Assembly (NCBI RefSeq): GCF_021502675.1
Contig: NZ_JAKFHA010000026.1
Span: forward strand, 1 to 64,000
Reading direction: 5' to 3'
Source: Yinghuangia soli
GTDB taxonomy: Bacteria > Actinomycetota > Actinomycetes > Streptomycetales > Streptomycetaceae
DNA length: 64,000 bases
Below the pieces are notes generated by a model that was given only the letters and a program-made list of their open reading frames with translations, was not told the origin of the DNA and did no database searches. Every line of letters begins with the position of its first letter. Position 1 is the first letter of the stretch. The translations under genes were made by a program, and so were the position numbers. This document shows, piece after piece, positions 22,659 through 26,929 of this stretch.

Positions 22659-22715
22659 TGGGCGAGCATCGCACCTGAACGGGCGATTTATGGGTTGTTC
22701 GCACACGACGTCGCC

Positions 22716-22752
22716 CGAAGGGGCGCTCCGGACGGCACGGAGCGCCCCTTCG
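22716..22752 (-). terminator. terminator of the sigma-factor operon
   Basis: cgaaggggcgctcc (22716-22729) pairs perfectly with ggagcgccccttcg (22739-22752), 42 bases after the last stop codon of the four-gene leftward operon. Confidence 0.8.
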
Positions 22753-22793
22753 GTCTCGCCCGCCGGCCCCGGGTGGAGGGGCCGGCGGGCCGC

Positions 22794-23852
22794 TCAGGAG
22801 AGCCGGCCGAACGCGTAGTCGCCCTCGACGCCTTGGGAGCGTTTGCCGAAGTAGCCGAAGCTCTCGGGGGCGACCGGGTCCGTGGCAGCGTCGATGTCGG
22901 CGGCGCTGCCGCTGCCCGACACGAAGTTGCCTTCCGGCGTGACGCAGCCGTCGGTGACGAACTCGCCCTGCGGGCAGGGCGGGACCTTGGCCCTGTCCTT
23001 GGCCGCCTGCTGTTCCTCGGCCCACATCTTGGCCTCCTCCTCGGGGTCGCCCCATCCCGGGAAGGTCCCCGGCAGCACCCCTTCGGTGCGGGCCCGGCCG
23101 ACCGGGGCGCCGTTCGCGTCCAGGCCCTGGACGACCACGGATGCACCGGCCGGGGCGATGACGGCGACCGCGAAGTAGCTCACCCCGGCCGCCTCGGGCG
23201 CCCTGGCGGTGTCCGCGACGGCGACGACGACGCCGTCCACGCGGATCTCGGCCTTGGCGGCGTCCGGCGGGGCGATCCCGTACATCAGGAACTCCCCCTC
23301 GTCCGGGGTCGGCCGGTAGCCCGTGAAGGCCGTGCCGTCCGCGAACGTCAGGGGCAGTGCCGGGTCTTCGTAGTACGCGACGTCGCCGCGCGAGGTGCCG
23401 GCGTGGGCGACCAGGCAGCGGACGTCGGACAGCGTGAACTGCGGCTGCGGCCATGCCCAGACGCGGCTCGGGTCCACCCCGATGGGCGGCCACATGACCT
23501 CGGCCGCGCGGCCGGCCGGGTCCGACCCGTCCTTCGGGCATGCCGACGCACGCACCCACCAGGGGCCGAAGGAGGCGTTCCCGGAGATCGCCCCGGGCGG
23601 TGCCGGGGTCGGGGTCCTGGGCGCCACCGCCGGGCCCGCGTCGCGGTGCGGGAGGCCGAGGTATTCGGGGGCCGCGAATGCGGTGGCCACGAGTGCCGCG
23701 GCGACGCCCGCTGCTGCTGCGGCCCGCAGGCGGTCGCGGCGCCGCCGCCGCCGTACGCCGGTCATGACCCGGTCGAACGGGTCCGGGTCGCCCGGGTAGT
23801 CGTCCGGGAGGCGTCCGGCGTCGACGAGCCGGGATGTGAAGCGGTCGGTCAT
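22794..23852 (-). CDS. single-pass membrane partner of SigE-family sigma factor, copy 1
   Basis: 352 residues. The N-terminal 30 are cytoplasmic with a run of Arg (VRRRRRRDRLR), then one membrane helix (about 44-62), then an external domain with Pro-rich linker, the motif GAISGNASFGPWWVRASAC and several Cys. The start ATG overlaps the sigma stop in an ATGA, implying coupled translation. By position it is the likely anti-sigma or signal receptor, but it has no recognisable zinc anti-sigma or ASD motif. Closely similar to the 24393-25490 product, including the C-terminus ending in DYAFGRLS. Confidence 0.72.
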   Translation of the reverse strand: MTDRFTSRLVDAGRLPDDYPGDPDPFDRVMTGVRRRRRRDRLRAAAAAGVAAALVATAFAAPEYLGLPHRDAGPAVAPRTPTPAPPGAISGNASFGPWWVRASACPKDGSDPAGRAAEVMWPPIGVDPSRVWAWPQPQFTLSDVRCLVAHAGTSRGDVAYYEDPALPLTFADGTAFTGYRPTPDEGEFLMYGIAPPDAAKAEIRVDGVVVAVADTARAPEAAGVSYFAVAVIAPAGASVVVQGLDANGAPVGRARTEGVLPGTFPGWGDPEEEAKMWAEEQQAAKDRAKVPPCPQGEFVTDGCVTPEGNFVSGSGSAADIDAATDPVAPESFGYFGKRSQGVEGDYAFGRLS

Positions 23853-24388
23853 GCGGCACCTCCCGGGATCGCCGTGTCGCCGAGGATCCCGACGGAGCGC
23901 AGGGCCTCCAGGCCGCGGGACGCGTAGGTCTTGGCGGTGCCCACCGAGCAGCCCATCAGTTCGGCGACCTCGGTTTCCGGAAGGCCGTGGGCGTAGCGCA
24001 GGACCACGGCGACGCGCTGCCGCGTACCGAGTCCTGCCAGCGCGCGGCGCATGGCGTCGCGGTCCTCGGCCTCGCCGGCCCCGCCGGCCGGGGCGTCGGC
24101 GGCGACGTCGGACGGTGCGGTCGGTTCGGACGGTCCGGCCGCGGCGCGGCCGGTCCACCATCTGCGGCGGCCGGACGCGACGGCGAGGTTCACCACGATC
24201 CGGCGACTGTAGGCCTCGGGCTGCTCGTCCCGCAGCTTCGGCCAGACCTTCCACAGCCGGGCCAAGGCCTCCTGGGCCAACTCCTCGGCGCGGTCGACGT
24301 CGTGGACCAGGCTGTACGCGAAAGCGGTCAGCGCGGTCCAGCGGCCGCGGGTGAAGTCGGCGAACTCTTCCTGTGCAGTGGCGTCCAT
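23849..24388 (-). CDS. SigE-family ECF-like RNA polymerase sigma factor, copy 1
   Basis: 179-residue group 4 sigma factor. Region 2 (FAYSLVHDVDRAEELAQEALARLWKVW, about 22-48) binds core and the -10 element; region 4 (LPETEVAELMGCSVGTAKTYASRGLEALR, about 136-165) is the -35-reading helix-turn-helix. Similar to the SigE family common in actinobacteria. Its start lies 4 bases past the stop of the preceding membrane-partner gene and its stop overlaps the next start, so the four genes form one operon made of two duplicated cassettes. Confidence 0.88.
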   Translation of the reverse strand: MDATAQEEFADFTRGRWTALTAFAYSLVHDVDRAEELAQEALARLWKVWPKLRDEQPEAYSRRIVVNLAVASGRRRWWTGRAAAGPSEPTAPSDVAADAPAGGAGEAEDRDAMRRALAGLGTRQRVAVVLRYAHGLPETEVAELMGCSVGTAKTYASRGLEALRSVGILGDTAIPGGAA

Positions 24389-24392
24389 CGGC

Positions 24393-25490
24393 TCAGGCCA
24401 ATCTGCCGAAGCCGTGGTCGCCTTCGATGGCCTGCGACCGCGAGCCGCGGGCACCGAAGTCGTCGGGGGACGCCAGAATCGCCTCCGCGTCGGCGCGGGT
24501 GATGCCCTCGGAGCCCAGCGGGCGGTCGATCATGCCCAGCCGACCGGGCACGCGGCAGGTGCGGGGCCCTGGAAGGGTCTCGGGGCATACCGGAACATCG
24601 GCGATCTGCCGTTCCTGCTCCTGCTCTTCGGCCCATGCCGCCGCCTCGGCCTTGGGGTCGCCCACTCCGGGGAAGGTCCCGGGCATGACGTCCTGTGTGC
24701 GGGCCCGGCCCACCGGTGCGCCGTTCGCGGCGAAGCCCTGCACGGTCACGGAGGCACCGGCCGGGGCATCGAGCAGCAGGGCGAAGAAGTTCATGCCGGC
24801 CGCTTCGGGCGCCGCCGCGGTGTCCGCGGTGGCGACGACGGCGTCGTCGACCCGGATCTCGGCTTTGGCGGCGCCGGCCGGAGCGATTCCGTACAGCACG
24901 AACTCTCCTTGGTCCGGGGTGGGCCGGTAGCCCGTGAAGGCCGTGCCGTCGGCGAACGTGAGCGGCAGCGCGGGGTCTTCGAAGAACGTGATGTCGCCGC
25001 GCGAGGTGTTCGCGTGCGCCAGCAGGCACCGGACGTTCGCCTTCCAGCGGTCCTGCTCCGGCGGGACCTCCTCGCCGGTCGGCACGGCGCCGACCGGCGG
25101 CCACGCGATGAGGCGCCGTTCGCTCAACGGATCCCCGGGGTCCCGTTCGCGGCATTCCGAGGCGCCCACCCACCAGGGGCCGAACGACGCGGTCCCGGAG
25201 ATCGCCCCGGGCGGCGCCGGGGTCGCCGGCCTCGGGCTGCCCGGGGTCTCGGGTGCCGGCACGGGGACCGTCACGTCTCCGTCGCCGCCGCCGCTCCAGG
25301 GCCGGGGCACGGTCAGGGCGGCGACCGCGAGCGCCGCGGCGAGGCCGGTCGCGGCCGCCGCGCGCAGGCGGTTGCGGCGCCTTCTGCGGCGCACGCCAGC
25401 CATGACGCGCACGAGCGGGTCGGCGTCGGCCACGTAGTCGTCGGGCAGGCGGCCGGCGTCGGCCAGCCGTCCGCCGAGGCGGTCCGTCAT
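24393..25490 (-). CDS. single-pass membrane partner of SigE-family sigma factor, copy 2
   Basis: 365 residues with the same plan as the 22794-23852 product: MTDRxxxRLxDAGRLPDDY start, Arg-rich cytoplasmic segment, one membrane helix near 44-62, Pro-rich linker, GAISGTASFGPWWVGASEC, LPLTFADGTAFTGYRPTPD and a C-terminus ending in DHGFGRLA. The conserved external block and paired Cys suggest ligand binding or envelope sensing. The ATGA overlap with the upstream sigma gene supports a functional pair. Activity as anti-sigma factor is inferred from context only. Confidence 0.72.
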   Translation of the reverse strand: MTDRLGGRLADAGRLPDDYVADADPLVRVMAGVRRRRRRNRLRAAAATGLAAALAVAALTVPRPWSGGGDGDVTVPVPAPETPGSPRPATPAPPGAISGTASFGPWWVGASECRERDPGDPLSERRLIAWPPVGAVPTGEEVPPEQDRWKANVRCLLAHANTSRGDITFFEDPALPLTFADGTAFTGYRPTPDQGEFVLYGIAPAGAAKAEIRVDDAVVATADTAAAPEAAGMNFFALLLDAPAGASVTVQGFAANGAPVGRARTQDVMPGTFPGVGDPKAEAAAWAEEQEQERQIADVPVCPETLPGPRTCRVPGRLGMIDRPLGSEGITRADAEAILASPDDFGARGSRSQAIEGDHGFGRLA

Positions 25491-26083
25491 GCCGCACCTC
25501 CCCGGTCGCGCCGGGACGCGGACTGCGGGCGAGGCCGCGGGAGGACGGCCATCACGCGTTCGCCGGGGTCGGGGCGTCCGCCGGGGGGTCCTTCGTCCGG
25601 GCCGAGGACCCCGCTGGACCGCAGGGCCTCCAGGCCGCGGGACGCGTGGGTCTTGACGGTGCCCACCGAGCAGCCGAGCAATTCGGCGACCTCGGTCTCG
25701 GGGAGGTCGTGGGCGTACCGCAGGACGACCACGACGCGCTGCCGGGCGCTGAGCCCGGCGAGTGCGCGGCGCATGATGTCGCGGTCCTCGACCTGGCCGC
25801 CGGGGCCGTCGACCGCGATGTCGGGCATCTTCGCGGTGGCGCGCTCGCCCCACCACCGGCGGCGGCCGGAGGATATGGCGAGGTTGACCAGGATGCGGCG
25901 GATGTAGGCCTCGGGCTGCTCGGTGCGCAGCTTGGGCCATACCTTCCAGAGCCTGACGAGGGCTTCCTGCACGAGGTCCTCGGCGCGGCCGACGTCGTGG
26001 ACCAGGCTGTGCGCGAATGCGGTCAAAGCCGTCCAGCGGCCGCGGGTGAACTCCGCGAACTCCTCCTGCTCCGTGGCGTCCAT
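25487..26083 (-). CDS. SigE-family ECF-like RNA polymerase sigma factor, copy 2
   Basis: 198-residue sigma factor, first gene of the leftward operon. Region 2 (FAHSLVHDVGRAEDLVQEALVRLWKVW) and region 4 (LPETEVAELLGCSVGTVKTHASRGLEALRSSG) match the other copy closely. About 20 extra Pro/Arg-rich residues follow region 4 before the ATGA junction. The near-identical start MDATxQEEFAxFTRGRWTALTAFA in both copies shows that the pair arose by tandem duplication. Both would be transcribed from the promoter upstream of 26083, probably autoregulated. Confidence 0.88.
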   Translation of the reverse strand: MDATEQEEFAEFTRGRWTALTAFAHSLVHDVGRAEDLVQEALVRLWKVWPKLRTEQPEAYIRRILVNLAISSGRRRWWGERATAKMPDIAVDGPGGQVEDRDIMRRALAGLSARQRVVVVLRYAHDLPETEVAELLGCSVGTVKTHASRGLEALRSSGVLGPDEGPPGGRPDPGERVMAVLPRPRPQSASRRDRGGAA

Positions 26084-26149
26084 CCATCCCCCGGTCGCGC
26101 CTGCCTGTCCCCCGGGGAACGCGATGGCGGGCAGGTCGCGTTGACACGG

Positions 26150-26211
26150 CCGGGAAAAAATACGGCCGGCGGCCCGAAGGCTCGGGGTGCGAGCCTAGGG
26201 GCCGCCGGCCG
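26150..26211 (-). terminator. intrinsic terminator of the HNH gene
   Basis: A long stem (about 26164-26175 with 26198-26210, plus inner stem aggctcg/cgagcct) is followed on the minus strand by gtattttttccc. This is the most canonical terminator in the window. Confidence 0.88.
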
Positions 26212-26287
26212 GACGGCCGTGCGCGGGATACCCGGGATACGGCGACGGCGGCGGACTGGCTGCCTCGTCCGGCAGAGCCCGCCGCCG

Positions 26288-26929
26288 TTATGCGCTTGCG
26301 GCTTGGTCGAAATTATCAAATTGTCCAAAATGCCCATCGCGGGCGCCGTGCCCAAAATGCTGATGCTGATGTTGGTGCTGGTGTTGGTGATGCGGCTGGT
26401 ACTGGTGATCGGTGCGGGACCCGTACTCGTCGGCCCCGTACGGCGCCAGGTAGGGCTCCCAGCGCGGATCGCGGAACCCCGTCCCGATGATCCGCCACGC
26501 CAGACCGCTCGGCTGGGTGGGCTTGCGGTGCATCCGCCACCCCAGCTCCGCGATGTAGCGGTCGCTCTTGACGTGGTTGCAGCGCCGGCACGCCGAGACC
26601 ACGTTCTCCCAGGTGTGCTGCCCGCCCCGGCTGCGCGGAATGACGTGGTCGACGCTGGTAGCGGCGCCCCCGCAGTACACGCAGCGTCCGCCGTCCCGTG
26701 CGAAAAGCGCACGGCGGGTGAGCGGAACCTGCCCCCGAAAAGGGATGCGGACGAATCGCGTCAGGCGGATGACGCTCGGAACCGGGATCTCGGTGGTGGC
26801 GCTGTGCAGAATGCTGCCGGATTCCTCCAGGCAGGTGGCCTTGTTGTTGAGCACGAGGATCAGTGCTCGCCGCACGGAGACCACGCACAGCGGCTCGTAC
26901 GACGCGTTGAGGACCAGTGAATGCGGCAC
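26288..26929 (-). CDS. HNH endonuclease-family protein with His/Gln-repeat tail
   Basis: 213 residues. The HNH core has paired zinc Cys (CVYCG), the catalytic DHVIPRSRGG and the second zinc pair CRRCNHVKSD. This Streptomyces protein type is widespread and chromosomal; its role is unknown, with DNA repair or restriction proposed for relatives. The odd part is the C-terminus, about 20 residues of alternating His and Gln (HHQHQHQHQHQH) from a gtg/ttg repeat, which could bind metal or be a slippage expansion. The GTG start has AAAGGAGG eight bases upstream. Confidence 0.85.
   Translation of the reverse strand: MPHSLVLNASYEPLCVVSVRRALILVLNNKATCLEESGSILHSATTEIPVPSVIRLTRFVRIPFRGQVPLTRRALFARDGGRCVYCGGAATSVDHVIPRSRGGQHTWENVVSACRRCNHVKSDRYIAELGWRMHRKPTQPSGLAWRIIGTGFRDPRWEPYLAPYGADEYGSRTDHQYQPHHQHQHQHQHQHFGHGARDGHFGQFDNFDQAASA

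Follow-up and report, generated by a model that had tools for sequence, protein, structure and literature searches.

Doubled pairs of a SigE-family sigma factor and a putative minimal membrane-anchored anti-sigma factor in Yinghuangia soli

We analysed a stretch of 64,000 nucleotides from the soil actinobacterium Yinghuangia soli (contig NZ_JAKFHA010000026.1, positions 1 to 64,000; here called the window) that carries a cassette of four genes on its minus strand in the order sigma1-partner1-sigma2-partner2 (22794-26083). Two sigma factors of the extracytoplasmic function (ECF) type are each followed by the gene of a single-pass membrane protein, here called the partner. Each pair probably represents an ECF sigma factor with its own membrane-anchored minimal anti-sigma factor, from which a signal would free the sigma factor, and this unit has been doubled behind what appears to be one promoter. 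Comparative sequence evidence suggests that a very short inhibitor most likely keeps the sigma factor at the membrane. The doubling at this locus is modest news; the pair type is widespread, and the protein-family libraries searched contain no entry for its proposed inhibitor.

The two sigma/partner units are clear paralogues, as a preliminary description of this DNA had stated: the sigma factors are 73% identical over 178 aligned positions (E 6e-85) and the partners 57% over 271 positions (E 8e-92; 57-60% across comparisons). The ATGA overlaps that it reported exist within each sigma/partner pair but not between the pairs, where partner1 and sigma2 are separated by a gap of 4 nt.

Two sigma factor-partner pairs and their relatives

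Both sigma factors exceed the curated cut-off of TIGR02983 and hence belong to the SigE family, sigma2 only just. Pfam matches to Sigma70_r2 and Sigma70_r4_2 in both, with the region 3 family absent from the Pfam matches, correspond to the ECF layout. Hydropathy confirmed one membrane helix per partner (residues 44-62). A second hydropathy peak in partner2 (residues 223-241) falls into a region of predicted strands, which were placed at residues 187-255 by both of two AlphaFold models calculated from the window sequences alone. The mean predicted local distance difference test scores of these models, 42.5 and 44.8, are poor; the former also has helices at residues 2-11 and 25-57. Neither partner belongs to a significant family in Pfam or NCBIfam, so that for these libraries the absence of a known anti-sigma motif can be upheld; partner2 had a sub-threshold match to the Ig-like Pfam family Big_15 (E 0.086).

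What the partners of this type share is a cytoplasmic segment of 30-60 residues with two short motifs and an arginine run, followed by one helix. A gapless motif search in 280 partners gave the consensus eddLRelLaaaAdd for the first motif (H1) and pdpaaavraRGRRRRRRRR for the second (H2), which lies before the membrane helix. In the window, H1 reads TDR[LF]..RL.DAGRL and H2 reads [AP]DP[LF].RVM[AT]GVRRRRRR. The external parts of the family are not recognisably alike, and partner2 matches only partner1 in its own genome (E<=0.01). A search with partner2 had matches at E<=0.001 in 6 of 101 genomes of the family, one of them its own, and with a five-row partner alignment the matches in 118 genomes of the class were only weak and N-terminal wherever they lay outside this genome. 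No relative was detected when genome contigs were scanned with partner2. A plasmid-borne relative of the partner is annotated by NCBI as 'hypothetical protein'.

In this genome, 25 matches to TIGR02983 lie above the cut-off, and at E 1e-35 there are 26 SigE-family matches here and up to 58 in other genomes. By manual reading, the gene downstream of 28 of the 30 best SigE-family loci in this genome encodes a protein whose short N-terminal segment is accompanied by an arginine-rich stretch and a single membrane helix. The two exceptions are L010, where no partner was seen, and L039 (G000:C61), whose partner, perhaps class I-like, is longer and combines a CPDC motif with a membrane helix that comes late. 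The preliminary description had raised the possibility of a new class of transmembrane regulator; as something tied to this locus the idea did not stand, given that most of the sampled SigE-family loci, about 28 of them in this genome, show the same anatomy. An automatic scan located a partner beside 173 of 222 distinct sigma factors (set A), and a second one beside 111 of 127 (set B), which were drawn mostly from other families of the class, with 5 pairs (L353-L357) from set A genomes. The filter required at most 2 hydropathy peaks, the first of them early, and at least 4 arginine or lysine residues before it; a few poor cases that it admits (e.g. L010, L039, L062, L108, L110, L112, L194) were kept as noise. 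The partner starts at an offset of -4, i.e. in an overlap, in 91 of the 173 and 80 of the 111 cases. Removal of pairs with a sigma score below 120 reduced set A to 169, which together with the 111 pairs of set B gave 280 pairs. In three loci of Acidimicrobiales (L099, L102, L103) the partner segment is even shorter, with about 32 residues before the helix and no clear H1.

Coupling between sigma factor and partner

We propose that H2 of the cytoplasmic segment docks on sigma regions 2.1/2.2, the surface that binds RNA polymerase, and that H1 probably docks on region 4, so that the sigma factor would stay inactive and bound to the membrane until a signal acting on the external domain releases it, probably through proteolysis in steps. 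The covariation of the two proteins lends moderate support to docking of H2 on sigma2 and weak support to docking of H1 on sigma4. By mutual information over 173 pairs, W46 of the sigma factor and a conserved glycine column of the partner ranked first (z 7.3), and this pair of columns was fixed as the hypothesis before set B was gathered. For sets A and B together, K47 and W46 reached z 7.5 and 5.6 with the glycine column. The column labelled V33 was read as the glycine column, because its label was taken from a window partner with an offset of one position; with the column labelled G32, W46 ranked 159 in set B and 565 on all pairs. Mean-field direct coupling analysis (DCA) of the 280 pairs gave W46 and the conserved glycine as the top inter-protein coupling (1.747, compared with a maximum of 1.447 in shuffled pairs; 0/40 shuffles reach it). 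V43 and the residue before the glycine (H2.9) came second, and the third and fifth couplings join M104 and A124, known contact positions in region 4, to H1. W46 aligns with residue 58 of E. coli RpoE; in Table 2 of PMC7406223 this residue is among the contacts to helix 4 of class I anti-sigma factors that four crystal structures have in common.

Known contact columns of sigma2 were coupled with H2 more strongly than other sigma2 columns were, with an area under the curve (AUC) of 0.62 vs 0.35 after shuffling (0/20 shuffles reach it). The same test gave 0.40 vs 0.37 with H1 (5/20) and 0.26 vs 0.39 with the membrane helix (19/20). Set B alone repeated the enrichment with H2 (0.58 vs 0.41; 0/25). 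The suggestion that the partners regulate the sigma factors is hence supported indirectly, via the family-wide pairing, the conserved cytoplasmic segment and its coupling to the anti-sigma surface of sigma region 2.

Several observations weigh against this reading. In set B, mutual information ranked K47 with the glycine column first (z 5.4) instead of W46, and the top DCA coupling there, between W46 and another H2 column, was reached by 2/25 shuffles. Without shuffles, the sigma2-H2 enrichment has p=0.11. The sigma4-H1 enrichment was not significant by AUC and was absent in set B alone. Entropy-matched mutual information was mostly not significant: for sigma4-H1, p=0.0095 on all pairs and 0.18 in set B; for sigma2-H2, p=0.45 on all pairs and 0.04 in set B. 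Shuffling, moreover, erases shared ancestry along with contact. Lastly, some SigE-family groups lack a partner (L050-L053 and others). Among the top-scoring TIGR02983 loci, no downstream membrane partner was seen at L050-L053, L055, L058, L059, L065-L068, L070, L071 and L074-L076; at related loci (L056, L057, L060, L061 and others) an acyl-CoA-synthetase-like gene, as read from its translation, comes next.

If each partner inhibits its sigma factor, the two copies could still bind one another's counterpart. Sigma1 and sigma2 agree in all 14 of the known contact residues that were mapped, compared with 79% identity overall in the sigma core (124 of 157 positions). Since this known contact surface is unchanged between the copies, cross-copy binding is likely, and the cross-talk raised as a possibility in the preliminary description is plausible. 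The sigma factors differ, among other positions, by V143A and H146Y in what we place as the helix-turn-helix of region 4, and the choice of targets may have begun to differ. It is possible, though not the variant we prefer, that sigma1-partner1 and sigma2-partner2 are already insulated as separate circuits with different target promoters. The two region 4 substitutions would fit such a separation, as would the longer branch of sigma2 in the sigma tree (0.295 vs 0.061 for sigma1; the partner branches are equal with 0.39 each). V43A, which adjoins W46, is matched by A31T in partner2, at the positions of the second strongest coupling. The V43/A31 match, however, is one isolated case noted post hoc, no more than one promoter is visible for the two copies, and the contact residues have not diverged.

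Coevolution indicates contact at best, not its sign. The partner could therefore be a membrane co-activator or tether that the sigma factor requires for its activity, or it could have a dual role, as is claimed for RskA as activator and inhibitor in the title of PMC7509140. We consider this unlikely, as the coupled surface of the sigma factor also binds RNA polymerase and class I anti-sigma factors, which fits occlusion. Equally improbable in our view is a partner that makes no contact with the sigma factor, i.e. a merely co-transcribed envelope protein whose coupling would reflect the shared ancestry of operon neighbours. Such an explanation could draw on the destruction of co-inheritance by the shuffles, on the weakness of set B alone and on the correlation of sigma and N-segment distances (r 0.41), as expected for any co-inherited pair. 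However, co-inheritance would lift H1 and the adjacent membrane helix alike, whereas the gain was observed for H2 only, and the N-terminal segment is conserved while the external parts differ. The mirror-tree correlation itself (r 0.41 over all pairs and 0.20 below 60% identity, with 0/500 shuffles reaching either) was set aside as evidence because co-inherited neighbours correlate anyway.

Promoter, duplication history and locus

The favoured reading, a sigma factor released from a membrane-bound inhibitor, would include autoregulation: the freed sigma factor is predicted to transcribe its own operon from the site TGTCAAC-N18-CGTT upstream of sigma1. Promoter counts were restricted to upstream stretches of at least 130 nt, which left 348 sigma factors, 283 with a partner and 65 without. 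AAC-N17-CGT and AAC-N18-CGT were present upstream of 65 and 55 of the 283, compared with means of 7.4 and 5.3 in shuffled sequences and 8 and 10 occurrences in the reverse-complement control. Among the 65 partnerless sigma factors, each of the two spacings was found in 5 upstream regions. In the subfamily, TCAAC-N18-C[AG]TT occurs 58-108 nt upstream of the sigma gene in 5/5 loci examined, one of which (NZ_CP108555.1) was obtained after the motif had been found. The upstream stretch examined for sigma2 contains no such site. TGTCAAC-N17/18-CGTT has 4 sites in the whole genome and 0 in the control in a one-genome scan; two of the three other sites (L358, L360) lie just upstream of TetR-like genes, as read from translations. 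A scan for sigma-70 promoters found no site.

A recent tandem duplication has doubled the whole unit behind this predicted promoter, and a signal to either copy would therefore raise both. In trees of six sigma factors with five outgroup paralogues and of six partners, the two window copies are sisters with support of 98 and 100. The cassette lies between an HNH gene upstream and malQ downstream (names read from translations). In the congener G002, malQ follows HNH directly on one contig with no cassette between them, which together with the sister position of the copies points to a lineage-specific and recent doubling. The congener G001 has one cassette before malQ; its contig starts just upstream of the sigma gene, while its HNH contig ends just after HNH, which leaves room for a second copy. 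Although the genome assembly is split into 91 contigs, an assembly artefact instead of a true tandem duplication can practically be dismissed, as identity between the copies is only 57-78% and both, with their reading frames intact, are on a single contig. A scan of 357 loci, mostly with short flanks, detected tandem sigma genes on the same strand, separated by 0.76-1.25 kb, at three other places (L019/L028, L231, L281); such doubling therefore recurs. One of them, L019/L028 (G000:C56, about 35.6-37.8 kb), is an older-looking SigE-family sigma/partner tandem of the same genome, with sigma factors that are 57-59% identical.

Strong hairpins flank the cassette on the HNH side and on the malQ side (Table 1), and for this reason it looks like a single transcription unit. 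A simple terminator scan reported nothing, the hairpins at 26155..26290 included. The C-terminus of the HNH gene (window positions 26288-26400) encodes a histidine-glutamine repeat tail, HQHQHQHQH, which differs in the congener G002.

Table 1. Features of the doubled cassette and its flanks in the window
Feature	Position	Strand	Basis or remark
sigma1, SigE-family ECF sigma factor, 198 aa	25487..26083	-	TIGR02983, 180.4 bits vs cut-off 141.55
partner1, single-pass membrane protein, 365 aa, proposed anti-sigma factor	24393..25490	-	no Pfam/NCBIfam family
sigma2, SigE-family ECF sigma factor, 179 aa	23849..24388	-	TIGR02983, 142.0 bits, barely above 141.55
partner2, single-pass membrane protein, 352 aa, proposed anti-sigma factor	22794..23852	-	paralogue of partner1
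ATGA overlap sigma1/partner1	25487..25490	-	sequence and ORF ends
ATGA overlap sigma2/partner2	23849..23852	-	sequence and ORF ends
partner1 residues 1-43, cytoplasmic segment, H1 and H2 ending in arginine run	25362..25490	-	family motif blocks
partner2 residues 1-43, cytoplasmic segment, H1 and H2 ending in arginine run	23724..23852	-	family motif blocks
partner1 membrane helix, residues 44-62	25305..25361	-	hydropathy
partner2 membrane helix, residues 44-62	23667..23723	-	hydropathy
partner1 external region from residue 95	24396..25208	-	67% identical to partner2 over 182-residue core
partner2 external region from residue 87; strands 187-255, perhaps Ig-like	22797..23594	-	low-confidence models
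predicted autoregulatory ECF-type promoter TGTCAAC-N18-CGTTCC	26116..26146	-	TCAAC begins 61 nt upstream of sigma1
strong hairpins ending in UAUUUUUU, between HNH gene and cassette promoter	26155..26290	-	RNA fold z -7.6
two strong hairpins between partner2 and malQ	22700..22793	-	RNA fold z -5.8

Significance and relation to known anti-sigma systems

The SigE family of sigma factors has many members, and in our sample most of them come with a partner, for which Pfam, NCBIfam and PDB sequences nevertheless gave no family. A minimal brake common to these sigma factors, with a contact site that can be read, could allow many unassigned regulators to be paired with their sigma factor and could be a source of small parts for synthetic switches. 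The two copies in the window provide a test case for keeping or losing cross-talk after the duplication of a pair. A bolder and rather doubtful extension is that the segments of 30-60 residues form a separate, fourth structural class of anti-sigma domain and a general brake of the actinobacterial SigE family, in which H2 runs into the membrane helix and tandem cassettes give rise to orthogonal pairs. If so, the continuity of H2 with the membrane helix could make signal transfer mechanical, and tandem cassettes would be the birthplace of new orthogonal sigma/anti-sigma pairs. In the literature consulted we found no description of the partner family, but the ECF classification literature may hold an earlier one.

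The known anti-sigma systems resemble the partners to different degrees. Class I factors (RseA, RskA, RsiW, ChrR) have a domain of four helices that often carries a zinc motif. They appear to share with the partners the surface of sigma2.1/2.2 (Table 2 of PMC7406223). According to the same survey, however, class I domains average about 101 residues, whereas the segment of the window partners has about 43 and comes without a zinc motif or a Pfam/NCBIfam match. RsbN, which acts on BldN in Streptomyces venezuelae and represents class III, is likewise a membrane-anchored anti-sigma factor of a streptomycete ECF factor, as described in PMC8103513, but its anti-sigma domain has three helices according to PMC7406223, while the partners have only two motif blocks. 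When a profile of 17 cytoplasmic segments was searched against all PDB chains, no anti-sigma chain matched, neither CnrY nor RsbN, whose presence among these chains was not checked. A membrane protein beside the ECF gene RS00060 of S. venezuelae, proposed in PMC11256431 as a membrane-embedded anti-sigma factor of unknown family, may be a comparable case but differs from the partners in length (102 residues vs 365 and 352).

A further likeness is with class II. A minimal class II anti-sigma factor such as CnrY contacts its sigma factor through two helices, of which the first binds sigma4 and the second sigma2 (PMC7406223). Anti-sigma domains of fewer than 50 residues were removed from that survey as possible divergent class II factors, as stated in its text, which therefore left this size range aside. 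The partners differ from class II, as far as their sequences tell, in the arginine run and the large external domain that follows. A new structural class is possible in view of the missing sequence match to CnrY or RsbN, but the size of the partner segment and its layout of two motif blocks, seen in 280 partners with coupling of H2 to sigma2 supported and that of H1 to sigma4 not significant by AUC, look like those of a minimal class II factor.

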